A stretch of 38,872 nucleotides of DNA from positions 1 to 38,872 of the forward strand of contig JAURZI010000036.1 of assembly GCA_030653435.1 (NCBI GenBank), in the 5' to 3' direction. Below, one piece after another: positions 4,052 through 38,808 of the stretch (position 1 is its first letter; each line of letters begins with the position of its first letter). The stretch is from Methylovulum sp. (lineage in GTDB: Bacteria > Pseudomonadota > Gammaproteobacteria > Methylococcales > Methylomonadaceae). A program made the translations under genes and the position numbers. The notes under the pieces are model-generated. The model did not search any database. It was not told the DNA's origin and saw only the letters and a list, made by a program, of their open reading frames with translations.

Positions 4052-4173
4052 CGTTGCAGCGGGTACGGATGGATTGCCTTTTCGGGATGGTGGTCGCGTT
4101 ATTTTTCAAGGAAATCAATAACCCGACCATTCATTATGCCGAGCTAGAGGCAAGTCCAGTGATAGTTGAAATA

Positions 4174-5703: not shown

Positions 5704-5721
5704 GTGTTGATATCCTTGGAA

Positions 5722-6828: not shown

Positions 6829-6830
6829 GC

Positions 6831-10698: not shown

Positions 10699-11261
10699 AA
10701 GATGTCTTCGTCTATGATTTGCGTTAACAAGATCCGAAGCTTCGCCAAATCAACCGGATTGGGTTCATGTAACTGGAATATCCGCCAAAACTTTATACCA
10801 TCTAATGCCGCCAGAACCAGCCAGCTTCTATCTGCGGACAGACCGTCGTCCAGCATCCCTTGCCGGACATCTTGAAAGAATTGGCGCATAGGGTCTAGCA
10901 GTTGTGAATTTCCTGCCATTGCCGCCAGTAAAGGGGCGGCAACCCGCTGCAGCCTTGGAAACAAAGAACTTTCGTTGTCTAGCATGAGCCGCAGCAAGGT
11001 CCGAGCATGACGCCCCCGCCCAATAGGCTCATTCACTAACTCGGAAGTGAAGCTGTCTTCAAGGATTGAGGCTATCCGAAAAACCATGCCTTGCACAATC
11101 GCATCTTTCGAGGGGAAGTGATACAAAAGTCCCCCTTTGCTCAGGCCAGCCCTGGCGGCAACGGTTTCAAGCGTCATATCTCTGACCCCGCGCTCGATCA
11201 CGACAGCTTCCGCCGCATCCAGTATTTGTTCTTGTGTATCGGTTAATTGGGTATTTTTCAT
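10695..11261 (-). CDS. TetR/AcrR-family repressor of the export operon
   Basis: This 188-residue protein has a TetR N-terminal DNA-binding domain: LDAAEAVVIERG leads into the helix-turn-helix TLETVAARAGLSKGGLLYHF (about residues 30-49). The rest is the helical ligand-binding and dimer domain. It is the first gene of the operon and overlaps the adaptor gene by 4 bp. E. coli places CecR (YbiH) in the same position, but this protein is shorter, so orthology is not claimed. A 26-bp perfect palindrome beginning 9 bp before the start codon is the obvious operator. No Shine-Dalgarno sequence precedes the ATG, and the predicted -10 box ends about 9 bp upstream, which suggests a leaderless or very short-leader mRNA. 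Confidence 0.88.
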   Translation of the reverse strand: MKNTQLTDTQEQILDAAEAVVIERGVRDMTLETVAARAGLSKGGLLYHFPSKDAIVQGMVFRIASILEDSFTSELVNEPIGRGRHARTLLRLMLDNESSLFPRLQRVAAPLLAAMAGNSQLLDPMRQFFQDVRQGMLDDGLSADRSWLVLAALDGIKFWRIFQLHEPNPVDLAKLRILLTQIIDEDIL

Positions 11262-11269
11262 ATATCAAA

Positions 11270-11295
11270 GACTATACCGACCAGTCGGTATAGTC
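11270..11295 (-). promoter_or_regulatory. TetR operator overlapping the export-operon promoter
   Basis: The sequence holds a perfect inverted repeat of 12-bp arms (GACTATACCGAC and its complement) around a 2-bp centre. Read on the minus strand, a TTGACT -35-like box starts at its upstream edge and TATAGT, a -10-like box, lies in its far arm 15 bases later. A bound dimer would cover the core promoter. The site is the only strong palindrome between the divergent genes. Identification as the operator is inference from position and symmetry. Confidence 0.82.
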
Positions 11296-11599
11296 AATAT
11301 TTACATTTTTGATTAACACATTGATTTGTATTTAATAATTATCAGATATTTTCAGCAGGAAGGATGCTTGCCCGATATGAATGAGCCATGATCAATTTCC
11401 AGGTTGTCCATTATCCCAAAGTCATCATTACCCATAGCTTATTTTATATGACCGGTACGGTAGCATCCCTTACGAATAGAATGCACCAGATCGGTTAATA
11501 CCCTTTTGGCCTATGTGTGTTTGCGAACAGACTATCCGGTCAGAAATATAGATCATGACCGCTTAGATGTGCCTTAACCCAAAACCCTGGAGTAATACG

Positions 11600-12127
11600 A
11601 TGTCCCAAACACACAATTCAGCCGTAGGTTTGTTTAGCAACCATGAAGATGCCGAAAACGCGGTCAAGGAACTGGAGAAGTCCGGTTACGATATGAAAAA
11701 GCTTTCCGTGGTCGGTAAGGACTATCAAACCGAAGAAAATGTCGTGGGTTACTACAACACTGGAGATCGTGTCGCGATGTGGGGGAAATTCGGTCTATTT
11801 TGGGGCTCGATTTGGGGTCTGCTATTCGGCTCTGCTTTCTTCCTGATTCCAGGAATAGGCCCGGTCATGGTCGGTGGCCCTCTGGTGGCCTGGATTGTCG
11901 GTGCGCTGGAAACGGCTGTTGTCACCGGCGGACTCACTGCCTTGGGCGGTGCGCTTGCGAGCATTGGCATCCCGAAAGACAGCATCATCCAATATGAAAC
12001 GGCACTCAAGGCCCATAAGTTCATGCTCATTGTCCACGGAACGGTAGCTGAAGTCGAAAAAGCCAAAGACATCTTGATGCAAAGCAAGGCGGAAGAAGCG
12101 AGTGTACATGCTGATGCGATGGGCTAA
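11600..12127 (+). CDS. Gly-rich membrane-associated stress protein (general stress 17M/DUF1269-like)
   Basis: This 175-residue protein starts at the ATG preceded by CTGGAG; an earlier in-frame ATG at 11567 lacks a ribosome site. Residues 7-45 form a ferredoxin-like half (VGLFSNHEDAENAVKELEKSG), as in general-stress 17M-type proteins. A Gly/Ala-rich hydrophobic hairpin (about 62-125, with IPGIGPVMVGGP) is followed by the domain's second half (KFMLIVHGTVAEVEKAKDIL). The protein at 14052-14576 has the same plan and shares the PGIGP motif and the TGGLTAL stretch, so the two are paralogues. The function is not established; members of this group respond to stress and sit at the inner membrane. Confidence 0.8.
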   Translation: MSQTHNSAVGLFSNHEDAENAVKELEKSGYDMKKLSVVGKDYQTEENVVGYYNTGDRVAMWGKFGLFWGSIWGLLFGSAFFLIPGIGPVMVGGPLVAWIVGALETAVVTGGLTALGGALASIGIPKDSIIQYETALKAHKFMLIVHGTVAEVEKAKDILMQSKAEEASVHADAMG

Positions 12128-12473
12128 GTCTTCAGGCTAGACTCATTTTTGACTGTCTATCCTACTACTCCCATCTGATCGAGAAAACGTCTAAGTTTTG
12201 AAACCGGCAACGCCTACCGTTACACGAAACGTAGGGCGCGCCGCGCGCCTTTTCCGGTACCGAGCCGCCGATGGTGCGAACAGGCTGAATAATGACCTCT
12301 GACAAATACTTCAACGCTTTTGGACTCAGATGGGAGGAGCAAACCAGGTAACTCTTCTTTAATGTAAGGTATGCTTGCCAGGATTGTGAGTCGTAAACAT
12401 ATCCGTGCGAAGTATGCCGTTCGCGCTATTCCATTGGAGCACTATCCGCTATTCCGTCAAACAGGGAACTACT
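12128..12473. other. Intergenic region with repeat copy A
   Basis: A weak 5-bp hairpin followed by CATTTTTG (12127-12151) may end the upstream transcript. The rest is mainly repeat copy A (12167-12336). The short leader of the next gene follows. No convincing gene is seen. Confidence 0.6.
12167..12336 (-). repeat. Palindromic intergenic repeat, copy A (inverted, internally deleted)
   Basis: Its ends are inverted repeats: ACTCCCATCTGA at the left and TCAGATGGGAG at the right. Read on the minus strand it matches copy C (25085-25281) along its whole length. It lacks about 21 bp that form one arm of the GC-rich internal palindrome. It contains no ORF of note and fits a small non-autonomous element. 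Confidence 0.85.
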
Positions 12474-13451
12474 ATGCCAGCTATAAAAAAAACGTCTTTT
12501 GCTATTGTCCCTTTTATCATCTTCGGCATTATTTTGATAACGGCATTGTTCTTAAAGTATTTTCAACCCATGTTGCCGGAGGTGCTGCAAAATTGGGCGG
12601 AACACTTATCCATTGCCTTAATTGTGGCTGTGGTTATCGGTTTAACGTATGAATATACATCCCATTTATTTCGTGAAGAGATTCTGAAAAATCTTCTACA
12701 CGATAGCCAAGAGCAGGTTTACCAAGCCCTTAAAGCTTATAATGTGCTCACGCCTGTTGAAGTTTTTCGTTTATTAAAAGAGATAGCGGCGCAGATCAAC
12801 CAGACGCCCACGCTGCTTTATCCCGCCCGACCGGACAGCGGGGAATGCACGTTCACGGAAAGCGTAGATTTTTTTGACACGCTGGTCAATATGCAGCCTA
12901 AAGAAATCGTCAAAATACTCAGTACCTGGATAGAGCCGAAAAGCCATAAGAACCTAAAATACCTGGCCAGTGATTTTATCGGCAAATATCAGCTTGTTGA
13001 ACTCGCAGATGAGCTTTGCCGACAGGCCGAGCCCGTTTTACATCTGGGTAACCTAAGCGAAGACGACAGGGGGTGGGTGTTGAATTATATCTGGGCTTAT
13101 TCTCGTTGTGAAAAACCCATGTACAAGATTCTTGGTGATGTGCTGCGTAGCACGTCAGACCACGACATCGAAAAGTGGCTGCTGTTCCTGCCGGTGCAAA
13201 TGCCGTCAATTGAGTTTGGAGCTATGATTAATGCCTATCTGGAACGCGAAGCGCCGATCGCTGACGATAATTTATTGTTGGTCATTCAGGCTGTTGCTGC
13301 TTTACATCGCGCACAAGTGATTGATGGCGTCGCATTGCTGAAAAAATTCCCTGATCGTTTTGGGCTGCATCACCAGGAAGATGTTGAACGTATTTGGAGA
13401 AATTACGCCTTAGTGCCCGAAGATTTGAAAGGCATTTTTTTGTCAGCGTGA
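12474..13451 (+). CDS. Two-helix membrane protein of unknown function
   Basis: I do not recognise this family. The ATG at 12474 follows AGGGA at a good distance and gives 325 residues; the longer frame from 12405 has no ribosome site. Two membrane helices lie near residues 9-28 and 43-60, followed by a long soluble cytoplasmic part. That part is mostly helical, with a short coiled stretch (LFREEILKNLLHDSQEQVYQ) and Trp/Leu-rich segments that may be helical repeats. It stands alone between repeat copy A and the oppositely directed stress cluster. Confidence 0.7.
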   Translation: MPAIKKTSFAIVPFIIFGIILITALFLKYFQPMLPEVLQNWAEHLSIALIVAVVIGLTYEYTSHLFREEILKNLLHDSQEQVYQALKAYNVLTPVEVFRLLKEIAAQINQTPTLLYPARPDSGECTFTESVDFFDTLVNMQPKEIVKILSTWIEPKSHKNLKYLASDFIGKYQLVELADELCRQAEPVLHLGNLSEDDRGWVLNYIWAYSRCEKPMYKILGDVLRSTSDHDIEKWLLFLPVQMPSIEFGAMINAYLEREAPIADDNLLLVIQAVAALHRAQVIDGVALLKKFPDRFGLHHQEDVERIWRNYALVPEDLKGIFLSA

Positions 13452-13555
13452 GTTAAACTCTGATATGTCATCGGCGCTGATGTTTGGGAACCAATAAACG
13501 AAGGCAGCGCGGATCCATTTGAATCCATGCTGCCAGCACTTAACGGCTAAACGGG

Positions 13556-13999
13556 TTAAGCTGTTGCCGCGTCTAAAAGCCGTGCCAACGTGTCGATATG
13601 TGCTTGTTGGGCGGACAGTAGTTTGGGTTCAACCAGCGAACGGATGTCTGGAAGCAGCTCAGTATCCTGCAACACTTCCTGATAGTCGGCCAAACCGCTT
13701 TTTTCGCCTTCCAGCAACGTTTTCAGAACCGCTTCCTTACCTATCATATTGGCTCCACCCAGGATTATTTTTGCCCAAGTGCCCCAAACCCCTGAAGTTT
13801 CAGCCGGCGTTCCGCCAAGCCGACTGGTTAGTGACTGTAAACTGGCAACCGCTTCTTTATGTTGTTCGTAAATGGGCATTAAATGCTCCGAATCGCCTAA
13901 TTCGACATCTTCGCGAAATTTATCCAGGGCTTGTTGATATGTTTCTGTTGCCGATAATTCGTTTTTTAACAATTTTTCGATAGTTTTAAGGTTGTGCAT
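13556..13999 (-). CDS. DUF2383-like (PA2169 family) four-helix-bundle protein
   Basis: The start at 13999 has a GAGGAAT ribosome site and gives 147 residues; longer frames upstream run into the neighbouring gene. The sequence resembles the ferritin-like DUF2383/PA2169 family: NLKTIEKLLKNELSATETYQ, then HLMPIYEQHKEAVASLQ, then TLLEGEKSGLADYQEVL. These helices carry regularly spaced Glu and His residues such as E, H and EGEK..DY, as in metal-binding bundles. Metal binding is an inference. It is the last gene of a minus-strand stress cluster, 52 bp after the Gly-rich protein gene. Confidence 0.8.
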   Translation of the reverse strand: MHNLKTIEKLLKNELSATETYQQALDKFREDVELGDSEHLMPIYEQHKEAVASLQSLTSRLGGTPAETSGVWGTWAKIILGGANMIGKEAVLKTLLEGEKSGLADYQEVLQDTELLPDIRSLVEPKLLSAQQAHIDTLARLLDAATA

Positions 14000-14051
14000 G
14001 AGAATTCCTCTGTGATTATTTATGGATTGAGTGGTTGGTGTATCGTCAAAC

Positions 14052-14576
14052 TTAAACATCATCGACCGATGCTTCCTCAGTCGATGAAATATCCTCGGCA
14101 TGAGCTTGCTCGAAGATAGCTTTCGCATTCTTTTGTGCATCGCTGCTTGCCGTATGTACTGAAATCAAGGCATTTCCTCCCGTGATTTTCCCTTCATAAC
14201 GTTTGGCTTCAAATTCGGGGATACCCACTCCGATTAACGCGCCAGTCAGTCCACCGGTCGCAGCCCCTACTGCCGCACCGCTTAAGGCACCCATAATAGG
14301 GCCTGCGGCGATAAACGGACCGATGCCCGGAATGGCCAAGCTGCCAATTCCGGCTAACCAGCCAAGCACAGCGCCCGCGCCTAAACCTATAGTCCCGCCA
14401 ATAGCCGTGCCTTCCGGAGCCTTGGTGTGCGCTTCATGGGCAAAATCCTGGGTAGTGGATTTGTCAGGAAACAGCACGGATATGTCATTATTCGAAAAAC
14501 CAGCTATCTTCAGGTGGCTAACAATGATTTCTGTCTGGTCGATACTTTGGGCTATACAAAAAACGGCTTTAGTCAT
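14052..14576 (-). CDS. Gly-rich membrane-associated stress protein, paralogue
   Basis: This 174-residue protein has an AAGGAG site before its ATG. Layout: a ferredoxin-like half (FCIAQSIDQTEIIVSHLKIAGF), a Gly/Ala-rich membrane hairpin with AIPGIGPFIAAGP (about residues 55-125), then NALISVHTASSDAQKNAKAIFE. It ends in an acidic tail (EDISSTEEASVDDV). It resembles the protein at 11600-12127 in order and key motifs. Its neighbours, the BON protein and the four-helix protein, are typical companions in envelope-stress clusters. Confidence 0.8.
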   Translation of the reverse strand: MTKAVFCIAQSIDQTEIIVSHLKIAGFSNNDISVLFPDKSTTQDFAHEAHTKAPEGTAIGGTIGLGAGAVLGWLAGIGSLAIPGIGPFIAAGPIMGALSGAAVGAATGGLTGALIGVGIPEFEAKRYEGKITGGNALISVHTASSDAQKNAKAIFEQAHAEDISSTEEASVDDV

Positions 14577-14593
14577 GACATTCTCCTTAGCCT

Positions 14594-15001
14594 TTATGGG
14601 GCTTTGCTTTCAAGTTGGTTATCCAGTTGCACGACACCAGCCATTTGCTTGACGATGTGTTGTAACTGCATTTTTTCGGCTTCATTTTCAACAGGCCCGC
14701 GCAACGTCACCGTGCCGTTACGGGTGATAATTTTTACGTTTTTGGCATTGACGGATAGCCATTTATCTTCAACTAAGGCTTTACGGATATTAGCCGTAAT
14801 ATTGAGGTCGCTTGGATTTTCCTGTTGATCTTCCGGGGTTAATGTCGTGTCGTTCTTATCACGGACATTTATCCGGGTATTTTCCAATTTCGTGTCTAAC
14901 GTCGGAGCAATTGGGGCTTCCTGGCCGGCCCGAACAGGGCCGGTCAGCATCATTAAACTGCCTGTTATGGTGAACAGAACTGACAATAATCGTATGGACA
15001 T
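14594..15001 (-). CDS. Periplasmic BON-domain protein
   Basis: This 135-residue protein has a clear signal peptide (hydrophobic residues 5-22, cleavage near VRAGQ). A Pro/Thr-rich linker is followed by one BON domain (about residues 66-132: DLNITANIRKALVEDKW, NVKIITRNGTVTLRGPV, VVQLDNQL). BON domains of the OsmY type bind membranes or help under envelope stress. An AAGGAG site precedes the ATG. It lies 17 bp upstream of the Gly-rich protein gene in the same direction, so the two are probably co-transcribed. Confidence 0.88.
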   Translation of the reverse strand: MSIRLLSVLFTITGSLMMLTGPVRAGQEAPIAPTLDTKLENTRINVRDKNDTTLTPEDQQENPSDLNITANIRKALVEDKWLSVNAKNVKIITRNGTVTLRGPVENEAEKMQLQHIVKQMAGVVQLDNQLESKAP

Positions 15002-15107
15002 AGTGGTCTCCTTAATGTTAAGTGTTATTTATACCGGTTAAACGGCATCCTTACTGGCTTGCTCCCGCTTATCCAACAAACGGCCTGCCAACTGCCCAAC
15101 GGTATCG

Positions 15108-15626
15108 TTAGTGAACAACTGCATTAGACTTTTGTTGTGCGGAAAAACTTGTCGTCGCATCGGCAACAAGACTGATGCTCCAGCGATTACTCGACAGACG
15201 GTTTAAAAGAAAGTCCGATCCCAATGCGATGCCTAAGGAAACAATCGGACTGTTATGCAGATAAGAACGGTAATGTGCTAACCAGCATTGCTCCGGTTTT
15301 TTTAATGGCCTGTTGGCATCGGCGCTTTTGTCCATAGCGTCATGAATGCCCGATGTAAGCCGGATCCTATCGGCGTAGCCGATCCTGTCTGTCGCATCTA
15401 TCATGATTGCTTTTAAATAGCCAAACAGGAGCCGATGAATTTTAAAATCTGCTGATTTTAAAAAATGTCTAAGCGGGGAGGGTATGTCAGCCCTTGTCGC
15501 CTCATTTAAAGAACGACAGCTAATCTGCTCAAAGTTCTGGGCGATTAATGATTGAAAAAATAGATAAATGACGACTAAAACGATGACCGGAACGCCGATC
15601 AGACAGCCTATGAAGCCTTTACCCAT
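15108..15626 (-). CDS. Membrane-anchored protein of unknown function
   Basis: The start at 15626 has an AGGGGAG site and gives 172 residues. The first 27 residues form a single hydrophobic anchor (GCLIGVPVIVLVVIYLFF). The remainder is a soluble, probably periplasmic, helical domain without motifs I can name. It precedes the BON gene by about 100 bp on the same strand. A 28-codon frame overlaps its 3' end (15038-15124), so a frameshift near 15110 that removes the original C-terminus cannot be excluded. Confidence 0.6.
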   Translation of the reverse strand: MGKGFIGCLIGVPVIVLVVIYLFFQSLIAQNFEQISCRSLNEATRADIPSPLRHFLKSADFKIHRLLFGYLKAIMIDATDRIGYADRIRLTSGIHDAMDKSADANRPLKKPEQCWLAHYRSYLHNSPIVSLGIALGSDFLLNRLSSNRWSISLVADATTSFSAQQKSNAVVH

Positions 15627-15835
15627 GACACACTCCCCTAAGGTATTTGGTGTAAGTTGAACCCCACTCATAGTTCCGACATTTTTCAGGCATTCCCGAA
15701 AGATACTAAAAGACAGGCTGATCCAAGCTGGTAAAAAGTGTACTGAAAAAGCGCGTTAGCGTCGGTGCGCTGTCGCACATTGGTGACAAACTGATTTCTG
15801 TTTGGAAACGATGGTCGGATTATGGGTGACGACGT

Positions 15836-16000
15836 ATGACCATGAATGGCACAAACACCGATAATCCAGTTTGGTTTATTACCGGCTGTTCAACGGCTTT
15901 GGCCGCGAACTTGCCAGTTGGATGCCGGCACTCGAGAGTATTGTTGTTAGCACGTACAGTGCTTACGAAAAACACCAGGCGCGGTAGTGATGGCGGGCAT
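15836..16000 (+). pseudogene. Short-chain dehydrogenase N-terminal remnant, frameshifted
   Basis: The frame reads NPVWFITGCST, the classic first strand and glycine motif of SDR enzymes. It then leaves the family pattern. Adding one base after ACGG restores GFGRELASW, the expected continuation of the NAD(P)-binding loop. Within about 20 further codons a second disruption follows and the similarity is lost. Only the first roughly 45 residues of an enzyme usually about 250 long are present, so it is a decayed fragment. Confidence 0.72.
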
Positions 16001-16039
16001 ATCAGCTATAACCGGGGTTGAAACGGCTATCTTGGTTTG

Positions 16040-16750
16040 TTAAATAAGAGGCGCTACCCACTCGCACAGCACGCCCACACCGGCGGTGATCGCCATCGCT
16101 AATGCACCCCAGAAAGTTACCCGCCCGGCGCCTATCAGCGTATTTGCGCCGCCGGCTTTAGCGGCAATTGCGCCTAGCAGCATCAGGAACGCGAGCGAGG
16201 TTACAGATACCCAGAGCATCAGGCTAGTTTCAGGCGCTAAAGCCGTTACCGCCATCGGCAGCGCTGCACCCACGGCAAAACTGGCGGCCGATGCCAGCGC
16301 AGCTTGTATGGGTTTGGCGCTAAAGGTTTCCGAGATACCCAATTCGTCGCGGGCATGCGTGGCCAGCGCATCATATGCCATCAATTGTTTGGCGACTTGC
16401 GCCGCGAGGTCTGGCGTAAGTCCCCTCGCGATGTAAATGCCGGCCAGTTCACGGTGTTCCGCAGCAGGGTCTTTTTGAAGTTCGGCGCGTTCGCGCATCA
16501 GGTCGGCGTTCTCGGTGTCGGCCTGGGAATGGACAGATACATATTCACCCGCCGCCATCGACATCGCTCCAGCTACCAGGCCGGCAATGCCGGTCACCAG
16601 GATGCTGCTATGGCTGGCATTGGCGGCGGCAACACCGAGCACCAAGCTGGCGGTAGAGACTATGCCATCGTTAGCCCCCAACACCGCTGCACGCAACCAG
16701 CCGATGCGGTCAGTGCGGTGGCGTTCGGGGTGTCGGCGCAAAAATACCAT
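16040..16750 (-). CDS. VIT1/CCC1-family metal transporter
   Basis: This 236-residue membrane protein belongs to the VIT1/CCC1 family of Fe2+/Mn2+ transporters. The first helix region carries LGANDGIVSTASLVLGVAAA, and the second holds GAMSMAAGEYVSVHSQADTE, both diagnostic. A cytoplasmic Glu-rich loop follows (about residues 77-140: ERAELQKDPAAEHRELAGIY). This loop is the metal-binding domain in the family. Three more helices complete the usual five. A GAGG site lies 8 bases before the ATG. The protein probably exports or detoxifies iron or manganese at the inner membrane. Confidence 0.9.
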   Translation of the reverse strand: MVFLRRHPERHRTDRIGWLRAAVLGANDGIVSTASLVLGVAAANASHSSILVTGIAGLVAGAMSMAAGEYVSVHSQADTENADLMRERAELQKDPAAEHRELAGIYIARGLTPDLAAQVAKQLMAYDALATHARDELGISETFSAKPIQAALASAASFAVGAALPMAVTALAPETSLMLWVSVTSLAFLMLLGAIAAKAGGANTLIGAGRVTFWGALAMAITAGVGVLCEWVAPLI

Positions 16751-16793
16751 ATTTAAACCTCGTCTGTTGGTATGCGTTACTGGGGTAGTGATG

Positions 16794-16962
16794 CTGGTTT
16801 CATGGACATTACTCCCATATGAGTCAAAAAGCGTTGAAGTTTTTGCCAGAGGTCATTATTCAGCCTGTTCGCACCGTAGGGCGCGCTGTGCGCGCCATCG
16901 GCGGCTCGGTACCGGAAAAGGCGCGCGCGGCGCGCCCTACGTTTCTGGTTTCATGGACATTA
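16794..16962. repeat. 18-bp direct repeats flanking repeat copy B
   Basis: CTGGTTTCATGGACATTA occurs at 16794-16811 and again at 16945-16962, on either side of the truncated palindromic repeat. The right copy contains the stop codon of the histidine phosphatase gene. The pair could be a long target duplication or the trace of a replication-slippage event. Confidence 0.8.
16811..16944 (+). repeat. Palindromic intergenic repeat, copy B (right end missing)
   Basis: From ACTCCCATATGA onward this closely matches copy C, including both arms of the GC-rich internal palindrome. The match stops after CCCTACGTTT, where an 18-bp direct repeat begins. The roughly 60-bp right part and its terminal inverted repeat are absent. 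Confidence 0.85.
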
Positions 16963-17598
16963 GGTTCCGGCACGTTGCCGCAAGTTTTCCGGCATATAAC
17001 TGCGGTCGCCCAAAACCTCCAGCATCGGTCCATACGTTCCAAACTTGACGATGCTGACAGAAGCTGCCATTGCGTTGATGCGGTCACGGTAACGACCTAT
17101 GTCTATGCCCAGCAGGCTACAGAGTATGATGCGTATCGTGGCTTTATGGGAGACGACCAGCATGTTGCCGGTCTGATGTGTGGATTCTATTTCTGTGATG
17201 ACGGCGAGTGCGCGGGCCGCTACCTGGATGGCGGTTTCGCCATGGGTAGGCGGATTCCAGGCCGGATCGGTCTGCCAACGGATATAGTCTTGTCCATAGT
17301 GTTGCCGGACATAATCGGGTTCCTGGTCTTCCCAGGCGCCGTAATTGATTTCTTTAAGGCCATCCCTAAACTGCATGGGCAAACCTAAGGCATCACATAA
17401 AGGCTGCGCCGTCGCGATGGCCCTCTTCATCGGGCTGATGTAAGCCGCTGTCCAACTCATACTACGGTAGGCGTCGGAGAAAGCTTGCGCCATTTGCCTG
17501 CCTTCAGTCGTCAATTCAGCATCCAATGTTCCGCAAAAAGCGCCGCGTTGGCTGTATGTGGTTTCACCGTGGCGTAGTAAATATAGTTTCAGGCTCAT
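16960..17598 (-). CDS. Histidine phosphatase family protein (phosphoglycerate mutase-like)
   Basis: This 212-residue protein has the RHG motif at residues 9-11 (LLRHGETTYSQRG), the nucleophilic His10. It also has the second arginine (SPMKRAIATAQ), the acid Glu in the loop near EINYGAWE, and the late catalytic His in VVSHKATIRIIL. The order fits the CobC/GpmB/alpha-ribazole phosphatase branch. The substrate is unknown. It follows the phosphoketolase gene by 140 bp on the same strand, so a role in sugar-phosphate metabolism is plausible. Its stop codon lies in the direct repeat flanking copy B, so insertion there may have changed the last residues. Confidence 0.86.
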   Translation of the reverse strand: MSLKLYLLRHGETTYSQRGAFCGTLDAELTTEGRQMAQAFSDAYRSMSWTAAYISPMKRAIATAQPLCDALGLPMQFRDGLKEINYGAWEDQEPDYVRQHYGQDYIRWQTDPAWNPPTHGETAIQVAARALAVITEIESTHQTGNMLVVSHKATIRIILCSLLGIDIGRYRDRINAMAASVSIVKFGTYGPMLEVLGDRSYMPENLRQRAGT

Positions 17599-29095: not shown

Positions 29096-29929
29096 TTATG
29101 GCGCATTTTTCTCGGATACGATCTTAATCGCGCTGGGGTGGCGTATCAGCATAGATGTATGCCCCTTGCTGCGGTTCAGCCAGCCGCGCACTTCAAGCAT
29201 TTTGCCCACATAGCCGTTAAGGTCGGTAAACAAGGGCAACCATTGCCGTTCGATACGAACATCAAACTGGCGGGAAAACTCCAGGTACACGAATTTTCGG
29301 GTATCGCGCAGCCCGGTCACGTTGCCGGTCAAACGCCGCCATTGATAGCCCGGATAGTTGGCTGCGCTAAATGCGGCCACCGGTATCGGCGCATATTCCG
29401 GACGTTGCCACAGCCCGCGTCCAGCTTGCTGCGCCTGCTCTTCAGCGGCAACCAACGCCTTGGCATAAAGCAGGTTAGGCGGATAAAGATTAACGCTGGC
29501 AAGGCCCGCTTCCACCAATTGCAGATTGATGTGGTCTTTGTTTTCGGTGAATACATGCGCCAATGTACGCCCGTATTTATCGGTCTTTTCGGCGCTGGTT
29601 TCCAGGCGCACAGCAGTATTTTTAAGCTTGTCTATCAGCCACTGCTTAGCCTCTTCGCCGCCCGCATCGGCAGGCTGGTTGCGGTGCGCCACCTCCGGTG
29701 TATTGATGCCGAGCAAGCGAATTTTTCGACCATCCTCCAATACTAGCGTATCCCCATCGTAAACCGTTTTCACACGGGAATAGCCATAGCCTGGCTTGAT
29801 ATCGATTGGGATGGCGCCGGCAGACGCCCGATCTGAATAATGCCGACTGCCGTTGCTATCCTGCCATTGGTAAATGCCTGCGTTTGTCGATGCAGGTAGC
29901 GATAATAATAAGATTAACAAAAACATCAT
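29096..29929 (-). CDS. Secreted Staphylococcus-nuclease-type protein with DUF4124 domain
   Basis: This 277-residue protein has a signal peptide (residues 1-17, cleavage near STNAG). A short DUF4124-like segment follows (GIYQWQDSNGSRHYSD), then a thermonuclease fold (about 48-175). Active-site counterparts are visible: DGDT at 58-61, Arg71, Glu79 and Arg121. The position of the calcium-binding Asp40 of S. aureus nuclease is Asn76 here (RLLGINTPE). The C-terminal roughly 90 residues form an extra domain I cannot name. It should act outside the cytoplasm on DNA or RNA if catalytic. It converges with the hopene cyclase gene, 30 bp apart. Confidence 0.85.
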   Translation of the reverse strand: MMFLLILLLSLPASTNAGIYQWQDSNGSRHYSDRASAGAIPIDIKPGYGYSRVKTVYDGDTLVLEDGRKIRLLGINTPEVAHRNQPADAGGEEAKQWLIDKLKNTAVRLETSAEKTDKYGRTLAHVFTENKDHINLQLVEAGLASVNLYPPNLLYAKALVAAEEQAQQAGRGLWQRPEYAPIPVAAFSAANYPGYQWRRLTGNVTGLRDTRKFVYLEFSRQFDVRIERQWLPLFTDLNGYVGKMLEVRGWLNRSKGHTSMLIRHPSAIKIVSEKNAP

Positions 29930-30027: not shown

Positions 30028-30909
30028 ATGAGCAAGCATCAACCCTCACTTAATGGCAACCCTGCATCGCCCGATGATCGGAACAGCGCAGCCCAGGTTA
30101 AATTGCCTTATTTTGACTTTTTACTGGATTTATTGAAAGCAGGTAATGAATCGGTGGTCAAAAGTTTCGGCAAACATGTGCATTGGGGGTATTGGGAATA
30201 TCCCAAGCTGGCCACATTAACCGCAGATGATTTCGAGCAAGCCGCAGAAAACCTAAGCGAGCAGGTGTGCTTGGCGGGTGATGTCCATAACGGCTTGAAA
30301 GTGCTGGATGTAGGCTGCGGTTTTGGCGGCACTGTCGCGCATATCAATGAACGTTTTGTGCGTATGGAGTTGGTCGGCCTGAACCTTGACGAACGTCAGT
30401 TGCAGCGTGCACGGGAAACAATCGAGCCTGATATCCATAACCGCATCAGTTTTCAGCAAGGTGATGCCTGTGCCTTGCCTTTCCCTGACCAGTCATTTGA
30501 TGTGGTCTTGGCGGTTGAATGTATTTTTCATTTCCCTGACCGCAAACAGTTTTTCAAAGAAGCTTACCGAGTCCTCAAACCGGGCGGATATCTGGCCTTA
30601 TCCGATTTTGTAGCCAGCCCGCAATTACTGCCGCTGACTAAAATTAAACTGCCTGAATGGGGGTTTTACGGGAAGTGCAATTTGCAGTTTACCGCCGCGC
30701 ACTATAAAAAGCTGGCCGAACAAACCCAGTTCGATGTTCAGGTTGCACGCAATATTACCGAAAATACCTTGCCGACTTACAGCTATTTAAGGCGTCTGGC
30801 CCGCCAGCAGCGCATCACCAGCAAAAGCGCCGTATTTGAGACCATAGCCGTTGAAGCGCTGAGCAGGTTAGGGTTGTTGCACTATTATATTTATGGATTG
30901 CAAAAGTGA
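30028..30909 (+). CDS. SAM-dependent class I methyltransferase
   Basis: This 293-residue protein has motif I VLDVGCGFGG (residues 92-101), motif II near VGLNLDERQL, the post-motif FQQGDACALPFPDQSFDVVLAVE, and the Ubie/sterol-type segment FFKEAYRVLKPGGYLALSDF. The pattern resembles Methyltransf_11 enzymes acting on lipids, quinones or natural products. The N-terminal HVHWGYWEYP motif is shared with tocopherol/sarcosine-type methyltransferases. The substrate is unknown; nearness to the hopene cyclase is suggestive only. It is followed by a strong terminator. Confidence 0.87.
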   Translation: MSKHQPSLNGNPASPDDRNSAAQVKLPYFDFLLDLLKAGNESVVKSFGKHVHWGYWEYPKLATLTADDFEQAAENLSEQVCLAGDVHNGLKVLDVGCGFGGTVAHINERFVRMELVGLNLDERQLQRARETIEPDIHNRISFQQGDACALPFPDQSFDVVLAVECIFHFPDRKQFFKEAYRVLKPGGYLALSDFVASPQLLPLTKIKLPEWGFYGKCNLQFTAAHYKKLAEQTQFDVQVARNITENTLPTYSYLRRLARQQRITSKSAVFETIAVEALSRLGLLHYYIYGLQK

Positions 30910-31586: not shown

Positions 31587-31714
31587 TTCTGTGTGACACC
31601 AGTATCCTGATTGAATTTTACAAAGGTAATGCGGAAATTGTTCAGGCACTGCGGGCCATAGGCAAGGCTAGGAGTCTGTCGGTCTTTCTGCTATCCCTCA
31701 TTATAAAGGGTTAG
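31583..31714 (+). pseudogene. VapC-type PIN toxin, truncated by insertion sequence
   Basis: The frame begins MILCDTSILIEFYKGN, the first strand of a PIN-domain RNase with its first catalytic Asp (Asp5). After about 29 codons (AIGKA) the reading frame enters the insertion sequence at 31672 and stops at 31714. A full toxin is about 130 residues with three more acidic residues, so this one is inactive. Joining the flanks across the insertion does not give a convincing PIN continuation, so further loss probably occurred. Confidence 0.82.
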
Positions 31715-33213
31715 AATAGCGTAGGATTAGCAATTACGGAAAAGGTAATAAGGCCATTAGCAATCATTTTATCGACATTAACCGAAACGATCCGATCAAC
31801 GTGCCAGGGAACTGCGAGGGTTGGATGGACGAAAACAGTCTGGCTCGTTTTGTGGTGGAGATTATGGAGCAACTGGACACCCGTGCGATAGAGCAGGCGT
31901 ATGGAGGTGGCGGAAGTCCGCCGTACCCGCCCAAGATGATGCTGGCCCTGTTGTTTTACTGTTACGCCAGGGGCATTTTCTCCAGTCGCAAAATGGAGCG
32001 GGCCACCTATGAATTGATCCCCGTCCTGTTCATAACGGGCGGAACCCATCCAGACCATGACAGCATCAACACCTTCCGCAAGCGTTTTTTGAATACGTTA
32101 TCCGACTTGTTTGTCCAGGTGTTACAGATAGCGCATGGCATGGGTGTGTTAAAACTGGGTGACATCAGCCTGGATGGCACCAAGATCAAGGCCAACGCGA
32201 GTAAACACAAAGCCATGAGTTGGGACTATGCGGGTAAGCTGGAAGCCCAACTGCGTAGCGAAATTGACGAACTGATCAGACGAGCCGAGTCGGAAAGTGG
32301 TCAGGGTCAGCAAGAGATCACTATTCCAGCCGAATTACAACGACGGGAAGTCCGGTTGGCAAAAATTGCTGAAGTCAAAGCCGAGTTGAAACGGCGTGCT
32401 GCCGAGCGTTACGCTCAAGAACAAGCCGACTACGTAGCCAAGTTGAAAGAGCGGGAAGAGAAAGAACAGCAACGCGGTCGAAAGCTGGGCGGTAAAGCGC
32501 CAAAAGCCCCCGAACCTGGTCCACAGGCCAAGGATCAAGCTAACTTTACCGACGGTGATTCACGCATCATGCCAACCGCGAGTGGCTTTGAGCAGGCCTA
32601 CAACGCACAGGCCTCAGTGGACATCGCTACGATGCTGATTGTAGGCCAACATGTGAGCCAGAACCCGAATGACAAACAAGAAGTGGCCCCGGCATTAGCC
32701 GTGCTTTCGCGCTTGCCGGACGACCTCGGTAGCATCGCCAAAGCAGCAGCCGATAGTGGTTATTTCAGCAAAGATAACACCCGACAATTTGAGAAGGCAG
32801 CCATTGAGCCTTACATGCCCAATGGCCGACAACATCACAACCCAACGCTGGAGGAGCGTTTTGCCCAAGTCCCCGAAGCACCGAAAGACCCTGATTCAGT
32901 GGACGCGATGGCGCACCGGATGAAGACCGAAGCCGGTAAAAAATTCTATGCCCAACGTAAATCTACCGTAGAACCGGTGTTTGGGATTATCAAAGAAGTC
33001 ATGAACTTTCGACGTTTTATGCTACGGGGCTTGGACTTCGTACGAGGAGAGTGGACACTGGTGTGTCTGGCTTTCAATCTGAAGCGTCTTTGCGTCTTAC
33101 GTTTAGTGTAAGGGAAAATAATGCCAAAAAAAGTGTAATCTTGGCCGATTTGTATGATTTTTTTATGTGTATTTTGAATCAGGACAAGCATGAGCCTTAA
33201 GACCGACAGACTC
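31672..33213 (+). mobile_element. Complete insertion sequence, IS1182/IS5-superfamily type
   Basis: The element is 1542 bp. Perfect 15-bp terminal inverted repeats (GAGTCTGTCGGTCTT and its complement) mark the ends. Both are flanked by the 4-bp target duplication CTAG (31668-31671 and 33214-33217). It carries one DDE transposase. Intact ends and target duplication indicate a recent insertion. Confidence 0.93.
31801..33111 (+). CDS. DDE transposase
   Basis: This 436-residue transposase has an N-terminal DUF772-like domain (YPPKMMLALLFYCYARGIFSS). The DDE residues appear as Asp125 (ISLDGTKIKANAS), Asp318 (AADSGYFS) and Glu391 (STVEPVFGIIK). A charged Lys/Glu-rich coiled insertion lies at about 170-245. 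The plan fits IS1182-like members of the IS5 superfamily. The GTG start gives VPGNCEGWMDENSL; a coding-like frame continues upstream to about 31720 without ATG, so the true start may be earlier. An alternative ATG lies at 31825. Confidence 0.9.
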   Translation: MPGNCEGWMDENSLARFVVEIMEQLDTRAIEQAYGGGGSPPYPPKMMLALLFYCYARGIFSSRKMERATYELIPVLFITGGTHPDHDSINTFRKRFLNTLSDLFVQVLQIAHGMGVLKLGDISLDGTKIKANASKHKAMSWDYAGKLEAQLRSEIDELIRRAESESGQGQQEITIPAELQRREVRLAKIAEVKAELKRRAAERYAQEQADYVAKLKEREEKEQQRGRKLGGKAPKAPEPGPQAKDQANFTDGDSRIMPTASGFEQAYNAQASVDIATMLIVGQHVSQNPNDKQEVAPALAVLSRLPDDLGSIAKAAADSGYFSKDNTRQFEKAAIEPYMPNGRQHHNPTLEERFAQVPEAPKDPDSVDAMAHRMKTEAGKKFYAQRKSTVEPVFGIIKEVMNFRRFMLRGLDFVRGEWTLVCLAFNLKRLCVLRLV

Positions 33214-33500
33214 CTAGGTTTTTTGCCGTAGCAACTGGTTTTATCGACTCTGGGAGTTCTTTTTGCTGAACGAAAATACGGAGTGTCAGTTTTAAAATGA
33301 TCTTGTGATATTTTTGAGGATTTGTAAATTGACACCCCTCAACAATTGCAGATATTCGTGTTCGATCAGGATACTATCCAACTGAAGAAAGGCTGAGTTT
33401 TGTTTTGTTAGTGTTTGATTAAATAATCATCCACATAAACCATGTGGGGGGTAAAGATAAATTGTAGCCAATCCAATGTATTTAAAATAAGGGAGAGTTG
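33214..33500. other. Intergenic region between insertion sequence and HNH gene
   Basis: It is AT-rich. A small hairpin CCACAT/ATGTGG lies near 33431-33447. An open stretch at 33333-33422 lacks a start but ends in a protein-like tail (GYYPTEERLSFVLLVFD). That may be the remnant of a lost gene. No other gene is supported. Confidence 0.5.
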
Positions 33501-35105
33501 ATGAGTTCACTATATTTAAACCGCCTCAGCGCAGACGATCGCAAGGTATTGATTGAAAAACTGCACCAAGCTCAGCATGGCAGTTGCTTTATTTGTGAAA
33601 AACCTGTGGATTTGGTGTTGCACAAGGATGGTATTGACATCGATCATGTAGTCCCTTTGAAAAATGGTGGCAAGGATGATCCCTGCAATTTTGCATTAAC
33701 CCATGCTAGTTGTAATCGTTCTAAGCAAGCATCGAATCTTGAGGTGGCTAGGGTATTACAGCGTTTTTCCGCGCTCAAAGAATGCTTGGAAGTGGAAAAT
33801 CGTAGTCCTAACCTGGGTGATATTCTTAAGCAAGCGGGTGGTGGTAATGCTCAACTGGTTTTTAAGTTGGATGGTGAACGTCTAAGCTATAGCTTGAGTG
33901 CGATAGGCGATGAAAATATCCATTGCGTTCCTGTTTACACCGATGAGTTAAGTGGGTTTCGTTATTTCTTTGCTAAGTTGCCTATTCAGTATTTAGCTCA
34001 TGATGATCGGATAAATCCGCGTGCTATTGGCTCCAATATCAGCAAACTGGTTGATGAGTTTTATCTGAAACGCCCTCAATTACATGTTCCTTTAGCATGG
34101 TTGTCATCGCCAGAAAGCAAGTGTGCAATTCACGTATTCGATGGTCAGCACAAAGCAGCGGCACAAATCATGTTGGGTGCTACGGCTCTGCCAGTACGAG
34201 TGTTCATTGATCCAAACCCTGACACCTTGATCACTACTAATACTAATGCGGGTACTACGCTGAAGCAGGTTGCATTTGATAAGTCGGTGCAACGCCATTT
34301 AGGTAGCACGCTTTATTGGAATCGCGTCGAACGTTATCGCACAGAAACGGGTCGTAAAGAAGATGATTTTGGTTTTAGTGAACGCGATCTTGTGACTTAC
34401 TTTAAGGGACAGTCACGCGAAATGAAACGTTACATCCTTGACGCTGTGCGAGATGGAGTGACTTCCTCACCTGAAAACAAACTGCGTGATTTTATCGATT
34501 ATGGTGGGCGTGGAAAAGAACGCCCATTGTCTTATAGCTCTATCGATAAGACATTCTATTCTTTCTTCGTGCATCAAGAAGTATTAACTACACCGCTAAA
34601 TTACGGAATGGAGAACGGAAATAATCCACGTGAGTTGGAAATGTTACAAATCATCAAACTGATGAACTTGGTTGCAGAGGAAATCTATATAGACAAATTT
34701 GATCCAGACATTGGCACCGATAAAATTGAAAGTCGTCTTCAAAAAGGTGATAACTTTGCGCTAGACCACTTACGTGCTTATCGCATGAGCAAGGAAGAAG
34801 TGTTGTATAACTGGCTAAGATACATTCAGCAAATAGCCAAGTTTTACTTTATCAACACTGGAAAGCCCATTCAAGAAGAAAAGTTGTTTCAATATCAATT
34901 TCCAGAACAGTTGTGGGAGAACATTCGGCACTTTGTGCGTAATCTTTCTACGCTTCCTTTATGGGCCAACAAGGAGCTTTCAGAAACTGTTTTTGGTGGC
35001 AAGCAGAATAATAGCTTTTGGCAAACAGTGTTTGAAACAGGCAAAAGCCCTCATGGTGTGCAGGTGATGGCACAGGCTATTAATCTGGTTGAAATGATTA
35101 AATGA
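33501..35105 (+). CDS. HNH endonuclease fused to a DndB-like DGQH domain
   Basis: This 534-residue protein starts at the ATG preceded by GGGAGAG. Residues 25-80 form an HNH (beta-beta-alpha metal) nuclease: zinc pair Cys29/Cys32, catalytic region Asp48-His49, Asn63, and His68 plus Cys71-Asn72. From about residue 120 a second region begins, with the DGQH motif at 214-217 in [13 protein letters not shown], and [10 protein letters not shown] soon after. This is the signature of DGQHR/DndB proteins, related to ParB-like folds; DndB regulates phosphorothioate DNA modification. The C-terminal roughly 200 residues are helical and unassigned. No dnd genes lie nearby. Inferred role: DNA-targeting nuclease in phage or plasmid defence; the trigger is unknown. 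The gene is AT-rich against its neighbours, suggesting transfer. Confidence 0.83.
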
Positions 35106-35329: not shown

Positions 35330-35905
35330 ATGGGATTTCACAAAGTTAACCTGGAAATGCAGGAATGCCTTTCTTGTATTGATGAATATACGAATAGTTA
35401 TGAACTGATTGAGAGTTTATTTGCTGGTATAAAAGGCTTAAATGATATTTTTCTTTCAGATCTCTTAGAAAGTATAGCTTCTGTAATTGAAGAGATTTAC
35501 AACGATTACGTTAACTTGGGTTTGCTCACTGAAGATGAGGAACCTTATGACGAGGATTCATTTAAAATCACCAAGATCGAAAGAAATTTAGCTGATCGTA
35601 AGATTAGATCTTATGAAAGCATACCTGAAAATATGAAACCTTATTTCCCAAGCGACGAAAAAGAAACAAGTGATCCTAGTGAATTTGAGGTTTACATAGC
35701 TGGCTTGATAGATTCAGATTCTGCTTGGGGTAATATAAAAGATGGGCGGGAATTCTTGGATGAGGCAATTCAAATTATAGGAGATGAACCGTTCGAGAGG
35801 CTATTATGTGACGTTGATGATAATGCCTATACGTTGGCGGAAAATTTAGATCGCCTATACGCTGACTTCATTAATAAAGCAAAAAGAGTCGCATATTTCT
35901 TTTAG
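35330..35905 (+). CDS. Acidic orphan protein of unknown function
   Basis: This 191-residue protein belongs to no family I recognise. It is strongly acidic in the middle (LLTEDEEPYDEDSF) and apparently helical throughout. It has no signal peptide, no membrane segment and only two or three Cys. It lies 224 bp downstream of the HNH-DGQH gene on the same strand and shares its AT-rich composition. A -10-like TATACT at about 35275 suggests its own promoter. No good ribosome site precedes the ATG. The acidic character would suit a DNA mimic or an inhibitor of a nuclease, but that is speculation. Its stop codon lies exactly where the truncated ParM-like gene ends on the other strand. Confidence 0.6.
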   Translation: MGFHKVNLEMQECLSCIDEYTNSYELIESLFAGIKGLNDIFLSDLLESIASVIEEIYNDYVNLGLLTEDEEPYDEDSFKITKIERNLADRKIRSYESIPENMKPYFPSDEKETSDPSEFEVYIAGLIDSDSAWGNIKDGREFLDEAIQIIGDEPFERLLCDVDDNAYTLAENLDRLYADFINKAKRVAYFF

Positions 35906-36387
35906 TCAATAAAACCGCCGACAGGCTGGGGCACGACCCACGCCTCTTTAACATTAACGGCTCTGTTATCGGGGAACACATGCAGCCCCTTGAGGGTTGC
36001 CGCCATGCGGTCTTTGTATCCGGAAAAATAATCAACCGGTAAACCGGTGACCAATAAATCGATGTCTGGCTCGTCCAGGTAATGCAATGCGCCCCTAAAA
36101 AAGGCAAGATGTTGTGGGGTGTTAATATAATCACTCCCCAGAATCCTGCCGGCGTCGTCCTGCCCGGACAGCGTGTCGATGGCGTCCACACCGACAATAT
36201 AAAGCGTCCCGTCGGAACTGAGCACTTCAACCGTGTCCCTTTTTGCCATCACCCCTGCCCCAATCTCGCTTTTTAGTAATTGCGTGGCGACAGAGGGGAA
36301 ATGACTGCAACGGATAGCCCCGTTTTCCTGCTTGCCATAACAAAATTTAGTGTTTCCATAGCCCACGTCAATCGCCCGAACAATCAT
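35902..36387 (-). pseudogene. ParM/PRTRC-D-like actin ATPase, 3'-truncated
   Basis: The 161 codons give the N-terminal half of a plasmid-segregation actin homologue. It opens with IVRAIDVGYGNTKF, the phosphate-1 loop of ParM/StbA proteins. It continues with YIVGVDA and LLVTGLPVDYF, and ends in VVPQPVGGFID just where the family's second nucleotide-binding half should start. Full members are about 320-340 residues. The start has a GGGAG site. The truncation coincides with the end of the acidic orphan gene, so it marks a recombination junction. The wording PRTRC protein D is a best guess within the family. Confidence 0.78.
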
Positions 36388-36794: not shown

Positions 36795-37562
36795 TTGTCC
36801 CGCTTAAAACAAGATCAGGGAGATCTCGTTCGCAGTGCCAGTTCAGCACTTTAAATAAGGAATCATCGCACCTGGCTATCAGTCTGAGGACGGCATGAAG
36901 CCGCCGGGGGAGTTTTTGAACCTGATAAATAATGATGACTAAGCCGCGGACACTGCGTGTGCCATGATTAAACTGCTGGATTTGATGGCCTGCCGTTTAT
37001 ACCTTCCACTCTACATCCATAGCCTGCCTTGCCAGGCTTTCCTAACTACGTCTGAAACCGAGGTTTCAACGTTTATCTATCCGCAACCCAAACGCGGTTG
37101 CCGTTTGTTTTGATAACGGGTTCGCCCCCAAGAAATTTAGTCACCTAGGCGTTAAACATCCGTTTACCCTTCACTATTCACATCGAAATCGCATGCACTC
37201 CGTGTCCATTTCGAATCACCCATCACCCGATTCTTTTAACAGGTTACCCGCCTTTAAACAGAGACGTTTCAAATATTAGGGCTGTACGCCTTAATTACCG
37301 GACACTTAGGCCGCCTGCACTTGGGGCATAACGGGTCTTTTTATGAATTCCTGTCGTGAAAACGGTAAAACCCGTGTCCTAACCGGACACCGGGCATGAC
37401 TGACACACGCCGGACAGATGGGAAACTTCATTATTCTCGCCTCGCGCCGCGAGTAAGAAATGGTGCAAATCCACTGCCTTTCCACGCAATTTGTCGGGAG
37501 TTTTGTCCTGTGCACCTGCGCTTACCATCGCGAGAACGTGTCCGCGTAGAAAGAGGGATTTA

Positions 37563-37863: not shown

Positions 37864-38808
37864 ATGCCCATGTCTAGGAATTACGGCATCGGTTCGCGGG
37901 ACATGGCGGTCGCGGGCAGGCTGGTGGTCAACGGCAAGTTCCACGGCGGCTACCAGTCCAAATACAACCTCGGGCAACGTTGGGGTTATTTCTGCAAATG
38001 GGCGGCAGAAAAAGGCGTGAAGAAAATGGAAAACGTCACTTTTGAACGGGTTGTCGAATACGGACAACAGCTTCAACGCGAATTGGAGGCTGGCGAGCGC
38101 AGTTCTTCGTCGGCACCCAAAAACTATGTGTCCGCCGTGAACACAGTGATGCGCTTGGCGACTGATGGGCAATGGCGATCGGTACAACCTGGTAAAGATT
38201 GCGGCATCGACAAGCGGGTGTATATCCCGACGGAAAGCAAAGCGATGGCCGAGGCGACCCACCAAACCGCACAGCGCGTCGTCGGTGAACGGATCGCTTG
38301 TTTGCTCGAATTACAACGGGCATTCGGTCTGCGCTTTAAAGAGTCCTGTCTGCTGAATGCAAAACTGGCATTGAAGGAAGCCAAAAAATACGGGCGTATC
38401 ACTTTAAAGGCCGGCACCAAAGGCGGAAAATGTCGGATCATCCCCTGCCGTCCGTGCGGCATTACCGCGTTGGAACAGGCTATGTCCCTACAGGACGGCC
38501 GTTCCATGATCCCCAAACATAAAGGCTATGGTGAATTCCGTACGGAATGTTACGAGCAATCCCGTCTTGCCGGAATTTCCTTCCACCCTGAACGCCACGC
38601 TTATGCCCAAGAGCGTTACACTGAAATCACTGGCGCACCTTCCCCCATTCATGCCGGATGGCCTAGGAAAGAACGTATTTTGCGCCTTGCCAGGTATCTA
38701 AAAATCAGCGGGGGCGAGGCGAAAGGGATAGACCATGATGCCCGCCTACAAATATCCATTGAACTCGGACATAACCGGGTAGGAATATCGAATGCTTACC
38801 TTGGCTAG
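37864..38808 (+). CDS. Tyrosine recombinase (Integrase_1 type)
   Basis: This 314-residue protein is apparently full length. The N-terminal half (residues 1-125) is a SAM-like core-binding domain (KYNLGQRWGYFCKWA, YVSAVNTVMRLATDG). The catalytic half has Arg157 (GLRFKE), Lys186 (AGTKGGK), His241-x-x-Arg244-His245 (HPERHAYAQ), His303 (LGHNR) and Tyr312 (SNAYLG). The nucleophile lies only two residues from the end. This resembles the Phage_int_SAM_2/Integrase_1 group found on plasmids and integrative elements of beta- and gammaproteobacteria. No strong ribosome site precedes either Met1 or Met3. The 3' end overlaps the next gene by 17 bp. It likely drives integration or multimer resolution of the element holding the ParM-like gene. 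Confidence 0.88.
   Translation: MPMSRNYGIGSRDMAVAGRLVVNGKFHGGYQSKYNLGQRWGYFCKWAAEKGVKKMENVTFERVVEYGQQLQRELEAGERSSSSAPKNYVSAVNTVMRLATDGQWRSVQPGKDCGIDKRVYIPTESKAMAEATHQTAQRVVGERIACLLELQRAFGLRFKESCLLNAKLALKEAKKYGRITLKAGTKGGKCRIIPCRPCGITALEQAMSLQDGRSMIPKHKGYGEFRTECYEQSRLAGISFHPERHAYAQERYTEITGAPSPIHAGWPRKERILRLARYLKISGGEAKGIDHDARLQISIELGHNRVGISNAYLG

Follow-up and report, generated by a model that had tools for sequence, protein, structure and literature searches.

The HNH and ParB-fold domains of the protein

Contig JAURZI010000036.1 of Methylovulum sp. (NCBI GenBank assembly GCA_030653435.1) was analyzed over positions 1 to 38,872 of the forward strand, and this whole stretch of 38,872 nucleotides is hereafter referred to as the window. 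Toward its right end lies a gene for a 534-amino-acid (aa) protein in which an HNH nuclease domain is joined to a second domain carrying a DGQHK motif. About half of the known relatives of this gene are found in or beside DNA-methylating defence clusters, and this suggests that the product is a portable, switch-controlled defence nuclease. The gene and its parts are the following:

33501..35105, + strand: gene for the HNH + ParB-fold (DGQHK) protein; ATG start, stop codon included, 534 aa
33490..33497, + strand: ribosome-binding-site-like AGGGAGAG, 3 bases 5′ of the ATG at 33501, read directly
33528..33782, + strand: HNH nuclease domain, residues 10-94 (C29, C32, D48, H49, N63, N72)
33948..34322, + strand: predicted ParB/sulfiredoxin-fold domain, residues about 150-274
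34140..34154, + strand: DGQHK motif of the predicted nucleotide pocket, residues 214-218; invariant and spanned by the DndB profile match
34284..35102, + strand: predicted C-terminal helical domain, residues 262-534, without convincing fold match

The G+C content of the gene is 0.42, compared to 0.51 for the whole window. HNH (PF01844; E=3e-8, 34.1 bits against a curated cut-off of 21.4) was the sole Pfam domain recognized in the protein, and it was matched by all 14 members of a family alignment (A1; E<=10). No other family was found for the protein in Pfam, NCBIfam or PADLOC at E<=1. The 14 aligned members matched nothing in Pfam beyond the HNH domain at E<=10, and the PF02195 profile detected none of them at this threshold within HMMER's filters. 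A sequence search of solved structures returned 15 matches with E between 0.022 and 1; most of them fell in the HNH region, and ParB-type proteins were absent among the 15. Matches to Cas9 and Septu PtuB (PADLOC) and to Cas9d, IscB and retron models (NCBIfam, these three far below cut-off) were confined to residues 7-101, so that an RNA-guided or Septu/retron identity was dropped.

The AlphaFold model of the protein (pLDDT 81) contains an HNH fold at residues 10-94 and a ParB/sulfiredoxin fold at about 150-274, in which the DGQH motif sits where helix 216-224 begins. Residues 262-534 were modelled confidently as a helical domain of about 270 residues; the first-pass annotation, made from the letters alone, had counted here some 200 unassigned residues. 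The same annotation had described an HNH nuclease and a DGQH-bearing domain in one protein. Its coordinates and the residues it named (Cys29, Cys32, Asp48-His49, Asn63, His68, Cys71 and DGQH at 214-217) are all in place, and the two domains are borne out by the PF01844 match and by the ParB-like fold of the model.

Residue conservation was compared in 21 copies of the family (loci of the relatives carry L numbers), with the broken copy L068 excluded and L011 and L013 entered as their longest open pieces. The residues D214, G215, Q216, H217 and K218 were identical in all 21 copies, as were D48, H49, N63, N72 and K75, while C32, H68 and C71 were retained in 20, L014 being the exception. We take the catalytic set of the HNH domain, for which the pattern D/E-H...N...N/H is expected, to be better read as D48-H49/N63/N72 than with H68, since the former are all invariant whereas one homologue lacks H68. 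DGQH appeared in 47 of 20,000 shuffles of the 534-aa sequence. The presence of DGQH alone by chance is improbable, not extreme, and its invariance is the stronger evidence.

The motif-bearing part had been called DndB-like. The family was compared by means of hhalign with a reference of 10 DndB-family proteins, picked from genomes of the host's taxonomic family by the motif DG[QN]HR (one of the 11 loci was dropped). Family residues 101-534 matched the reference with a probability of 55.4% and a score of 41.2 over 54 columns around the motif, and the full-length family matched with 49.9% over 34 columns. When the columns of the DndB alignment were shuffled, the maximum was 3.9% with a score of 27.3 (n=597), and 0.6% in a set of 60. 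Because the probability lies far above that of the shuffles, DGQH appears to be no bare coincidence. The match is above noise but the kinship remote; the alignment is confined to 54 columns, the references were picked by motif, and 55% is a moderate probability. The DGQH core and the surrounding pattern are shared with the DndB/DGQHR proteins (PF14072, TIGR03187), from which the window family differs by the fused HNH and the C-terminal helical domain.

Strict membership of the DndB/DGQHR family is not supported. The fifth residue of the motif is K in 21 of 21 copies, compared to R in the near-invariant DndB/DGQHR signature, so that four of five residues are shared; the window protein had no PF14072 or TIGR03187 match at E<=1, and the DndB, ParB and GmrSD models (PF14072, PF02195, PF03235) matched none of 14 members at E<=10. 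The first-pass annotation had also noted an absence of dnd genes, which holds for DndB-family proteins and DndC, both without a match in the host genome in searches that did not extend to DndD and DndE. A link to phosphorothioation is not supported, and neither is phosphorothioate sensing of the DndB type.

Pairing of a ParB-type fold with HNH is known. GmrSD and BrxU combine a ParB-fold DUF262 with HNH (PMC4619093, PMC10952713), BrxU adjoins BREX (PMC10952713), and a PF02195-based survey reports HNH as a bacterial fusion partner of the ParB-CTPase fold (PMC12704722). The window family resembles GmrSD, BrxU and SspE, which are type IV and phosphorothioate-sensing nucleases made of a DUF262 NTPase and a DUF1524 HNH, in that a ParB/sulfiredoxin-fold domain with a DGQ-type motif is joined to an HNH nuclease, mostly in one polypeptide and in a defence-island context. 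It differs from them by the reversed domain order, with HNH first; by an N-terminal HNH of the PF01844 type with Cys29/Cys32 instead of a C-terminal DUF1524; by DGQHK instead of DGQQR; and by a helical C-terminus of its own. Residues 101-534 matched a set of 24 GmrSD_N proteins at 10.9%, away from the motif, and no PF03235 (GmrSD_N) match was found in the whole host genome. GmrSD/DUF262 membership was thus rejected on domain order, motif and profile despite the same two fold types. The same pair of fold types also occurs in the PF02195-PF01844 fusions of the survey (PMC12704722), from which the window family differs by the lack of a PF02195 match at E<=10. For the QR pair and FxxxN motif (PMC4619093), a reading by eye placed R174 and L243xxxN247 at plausible positions.

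Relatives of the gene and their defence-operon neighbours

The family amounted to 22 copies including the window. A pattern search of 84,980 species genomes supplied 15 relatives, five came from 237 genomes of the host's taxonomic family (a sixth copy there being that of the window), and one was found on a 102-kb IMG/VR contig (49% identity). A class-level sample contained the window alone (1 of 369), no copy was found in the plasmid collections searched, and the phage collection gave solely an HNH-domain match. Identity to the window was 69-81% among the proteobacterial copies compared, 49% in a metagenome-assembled genome (MAG) of Verrucomicrobiota and 43-44% in a Bacillota MAG. Stenotrophomonas panacihumi and Variovorax are among the carriers of relatives. 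The ratio of nonsynonymous to synonymous substitution rates (dN/dS) was 0.03-0.18 in six of eight pairs computed; two window pairs gave no value, dS being saturated. The family is rare and patchy yet conserved and, by these sequence comparisons, under purifying selection, with the frame broken in three copies (L011, L013, L068). No paper describing an HNH-DGQHK family was recognized from titles and abstract openings, supplements and most subscription journals being outside the search.

Ten of the 22 copies lie in or beside methyltransferase defence operons, which agrees with the defence context expected in the first-pass annotation: six in operons we read as ARMADA-like, a seventh within a MADS-like one, an eighth after type I restriction genes, and the last two next to type III restriction genes. 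In eight of the ten the HNH gene follows the methyltransferase in the same orientation, and in L007 and L008 it is convergent with the type III system (restriction gene scanned in L007; homologue in L008). In L001, L002, L003 and L067 (4 of 22) the gene stands directly behind the methyltransferase, and its ATG overlaps the methyltransferase stop codon by one base, which suggests co-translation. One open reading frame (ORF) intervenes in L006 and L011, two in L088, and hsdS and hsdR in L015, where the HNH gene follows a type I hsdM-hsdS-hsdR set. Identity to the window was 70-81% in eight of these ten loci, 43% in L015 and 49% in L088.

The six ARMADA-like copies (L001, L002, L003, L006, L011, L088) follow a type IIG/PglX-like methyltransferase, which was scanned in L001, L006 and L088 and identified in L002, L003 and L011 as a BLASTP homologue of that of L001. 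It is preceded by a DrmD-like helicase in L001, L002, L003, L011 and L088 (scanned in L001; homologues elsewhere); the contig of L006 starts inside the methyltransferase region. Downstream of the HNH gene, L011 encodes a 2112-aa DEAD+MZB helicase and then a UvrD helicase, and L088 an 1815-aa DEAD+MZB helicase. MZB (PF09369) is the present name of DUF1998. In L001 and L003 Mokosh-like genes, MkoA- and MkoB-like (scanned in L001), occupy 10642-16990 between the HNH gene and a DruE-like helicase interrupted by the locus end; L002 has instead a second DrmD-like gene and a PDC-M16A gene. By our reading, ArmA-, ArmB- and ArmC-type genes are present in L011 and L088 and, up to the locus ends, in L001 and L003. 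The set is partial in L002 (ArmA- and ArmB-like only) and L006 (ArmB-like only), and no such set was seen for the window or, as far as their retrieved stretches extend, for the other copies. Guest genes seem to have a slot at the ArmB-ArmC junction, where DUF932 and Mrr_N-type ORFs are located in L088.

The ARMADA assignment is our inference from the gene descriptions of a preprint, in which ArmA is BrxHII-like, ArmB PglX-like, ArmC YprA-like with DUF1998, and ArmD UvrD (PMC12458937); the PADLOC labels were DrmD, IIG/DrmMI and DruE. The HNH-DGQHK protein is not among the four ARMADA proteins (ArmABCD), and in the main text of that preprint "HNH" occurs solely in a reference title (PMC12458937). 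What links the relatives to ARMADA and MADS is their placement in operons, with genes like ArmA/ArmB/ArmC(/ArmD) in L011 and L088 and in part in L001-L003, and with mad2/5/6/7-like genes in L067. The window contains no such operon around its copy. In L067, where proteins were named from PADLOC labels, the HNH gene stands between mad2- and mad5-like genes, followed by mad6- and mad7-like genes; this short MADS-like operon (1552-12424) adjoins a divergent gene with RNase_H_2 and AAA_12 domains.

Locus L088 (IMGVR_UViG_3300048599_000897) is the 102-kb contig, classed as viral, that bears an ARMADA-like operon with the HNH gene. The gene after the operon begins like those for three-Cys-motif partner proteins, and the contig could itself be a plasmid or a satellite, or else an island that was classed wrongly.

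Several copies stand among housekeeping genes. In L010 the HNH gene adjoins a gene scanned as EPSP synthase, a homologue of which adjoins it in L012, and in three further loci, L064-L066, it lies alone between alaS and lysC. No defence operon was recognized for the window, L004, L005, L009, L013, L014 and L068, where not all neighbours were scanned. The two outcomes by which the first-pass annotation was to be refuted, a structure unlike ParB and housekeeping contexts throughout, did not occur: the modelled fold is ParB-like and, with 10 of 22 copies in or beside defence operons, the contexts are mixed. In a tree of 20 copies the window grouped (99/98) with the ARMADA-like L001, L003 and L011 and the MADS-like L067, and L002 and L013 joined this clade at 95/93. 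The window copy itself is solitary, and five of the six other clade members stand behind a methyltransferase; by this grouping the solitary window copy belongs to a methyltransferase-linked clade.

Surroundings of the window copy and the alaS-lysC site

The features around the gene in the window are:

31668..33217, + strand: transposon copy left of the HNH-DGQHK gene; DDE transposase ORF 31801-33111
35330..35905, + strand: 191-aa ORF adjoining the HNH-DGQHK gene, without known family
35902..36387, − strand: actin-like (PRTRC D-like) gene, 5′ part, broken at about 35903; right border of the foreign module
37864..38808, + strand: tyrosine-recombinase-like gene near the contig end (Integrase_1, E=2.3e-6)

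The transposon is bounded by 19-bp perfect terminal inverted repeats (31668-31686 and 33199-33217), and parts of it (the ends) reappear at the starts of several other contigs of the host genome. The plasmid-type actin-like fragment matched ALP_N (E=3e-27) and PRTRC_D (E=1e-32, below cut-off). From position 35903 toward the right, the genome of a congener (G008) matches at 96% identity, with a 335-aa open frame in this part; it contains no match to the HNH-DGQHK protein and no DNA match to the 191-aa ORF. With a transposon copy at the left and, at the right, a broken actin-like gene, the HNH-DGQHK gene is located in a rearranged, mobile stretch; the first-pass annotation had placed it in a mobile island, to which the tyrosine-recombinase-like gene also answers.

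The 191-aa ORF had no Pfam or NCBIfam family at E<=1 and one weak PADLOC match (E=0.022). By tblastn against the loci collected at that stage it was found at its own locus only, beside no other copy, and was rejected as an obligate partner. A small methyltransferase gene at 30028-30909 gave a mad2 match (E=1e-20 over about 125 residues) and was considered as a defence gene; it is of the Methyltransf_11 type with DNA matches in many congeners, and was left out of the defence count. Elsewhere in the window, 29099-29929 (− strand) encodes a staphylococcal-nuclease homologue with an N-terminal DUF4124, and some 30 bp at 36832-36863 recur in congeners G002, G003, G007, G008 and G019 and twice more in the window's own genome, on contig C47.

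At the alaS-lysC site the HNH gene was found in three species of a related genus (that of genome G585; L064-L066, scanned in L066), and in L079 and L080 of this genus the site is empty. Elsewhere it holds a Schlafen-type gene (L072), Fic (L076), a PDC-S59-like ATPase (L071), PIN (L073), an ORC-like ATPase with a PIN protein (L075), H-NS (L081, scanned) or ORFs without identification (L074, L077, L078). Since the site is empty or otherwise filled in related species, the HNH gene is one exchangeable cargo among others, which include defence- and toxin-type genes. A repeat of about 250 bp, dispersed in these genomes, is present in inverted copies that flank the HNH gene in L064-L066 and other ORFs in L071-L074; in L073 the PIN gene lies outside the pair. 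The repeat has many further matches in genomes of the genus of L064-L066 and L071-L082.

Proposed function and its alternatives

We propose, with moderate confidence, that the protein is a DNA nuclease, self-contained and gated by a nucleotide, that serves in defence against phages or plasmids. The ParB-type domain would bind, and perhaps hydrolyze, a nucleoside triphosphate (NTP) via a pocket formed by DGQHK and R174; in the ParB-CTPase-fold survey, sequence is no reliable predictor of nucleotide specificity (PMC12704722). The C-terminal helical domain, as a possible reader of DNA or of a partner, and/or the ParB-type domain would recognize a feature of the DNA, either a modification or an intermediate of replication or restriction. 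Licensed in turn by the nucleotide switch, the N-terminal HNH domain would cut or nick the invading DNA. Such a logic of recognition, hydrolysis and activation would follow, with the domains in reverse order, that of SspE, in which DNA recognition leads to GTP hydrolysis and licensing of the HNH domain; it was demonstrated for SspE and proposed for GmrSD/BrxU (PMC13251355, PMC10952713, PMC4619093). The domains themselves were assigned from sequence and the model, and the switch, the target and the cutting we infer from these and from the analogy.

As the HNH-DGQHK gene also occurs alone, its product is probably independent of any one cognate methyltransferase. Within loci of the ARMADA-like, MADS-like and restriction-modification kinds it would be an added, or backup, effector. 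A broader formulation is offered more tentatively: the proteins might constitute an undescribed family of portable NTP-switched nucleases that plug in at methyltransferase genes of unrelated defence systems as an extra or missing cutter and also serve as a one-gene system at cargo hotspots, that is, a mobile effector shared between systems. If so, a ParB-type nucleotide switch and an HNH nuclease would here be united in an order opposite to that of GmrSD/SspE. Given the DGQHK pocket and a helical C-terminus without convincing known match, this would be a third way of joining the two, besides the GmrSD-like and PF02195-HNH fusions.

BREX, DISARM, ARMADA, MADS and Druantia restrict unmodified DNA by mechanisms described as unknown (PMC12904381, 2026). 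Auxiliary effectors near BREX are reported to include GmrSD-type ParB-HNH proteins as well as other HNH proteins (PMC12839542), and HNH proteins occur near Dnd (PMC10853773); the HNH protein of a Druantia/Zorya preprint is ZorE, a different one (PMC13192584). The pairing of a ParB-fold switch with HNH being known already, the interest here is the repeated placement with methyltransferase genes of unrelated defence systems. A nuclease family present in ARMADA-like and MADS-like operons and also alone is a small and directly testable candidate effector. Activity of the protein alone would mean that the label "HNH endonuclease" has concealed a defence system of a single gene, and activity with an operon only would point to the cutting step of ARMADA- or MADS-like systems.

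It is possible, though unlikely, that the protein is the restriction partner of the adjoining methyltransferase and cuts DNA without its mark, as the cutting half of a composite R-M-like system, with solitary copies using other methyltransferases or being relics. This would account for the position directly behind the methyltransferase, with one-base overlap, in three ARMADA-like loci and one MADS-like locus, for the position behind type I genes in L015, and for the nesting (99/98) of the solitary window copy among methyltransferase-linked copies. However, the methyltransferases match different families and would differ in specificity, and yet the HNH protein is 70-81% identical to that of the window in eight of the ten loci. 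Moreover, one genus retains three open orthologous solitary copies, no methyltransferase remnant was found just upstream of the window's gene, and the L011 methyltransferase had no match in the host genome in a search that had no positive control.

A more doubtful reading is that of a suicide (abortive-infection) nuclease, whose ParB-type domain would sense a change of the nucleotide pool or a phage signal and free the HNH domain to cut host and phage DNA alike. A nucleotide-type fold fused to a nuclease, defence-island neighbours and a cargo site shared with PIN, Fic and Schlafen-type genes are consistent with it, and operons of this kind have been described with backup suicide effectors (PMC12839542). 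Sequence, on the other hand, cannot separate direct restriction from suicide, and no conserved antitoxin-like partner was seen, the 191-aa neighbour standing beside no other copy then collected.

It is improbable that the protein is a DndB-like regulator, with HNH as a DNA-binding module, that represses or tunes the methyltransferase operon without cutting. The remote likeness to DndB, reported to be an ATP-dependent repressor of the dnd operon (PMC12704722), and the position inside operons would fit. Such a role would leave the invariance of D48, H49, N63 and N72 in 21 of 21 copies unaccounted for, many copies have no operon found beside them, and the host genome yielded neither DndB nor DndC.

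A selfish or homing-type nuclease, spreading by itself as a lone gene, was rejected as very improbable: single-gene placements at unrelated sites and the alaS-lysC copies of three species between inverted repeats of about 250 bp recall such an element, but it leaves the placement inside defence operons unexplained, no disrupted target gene, intron or intein was noticed (no systematic search was made), and the same repeats flank other cargo (L071-L074) and hence are not the HNH gene's own ends.
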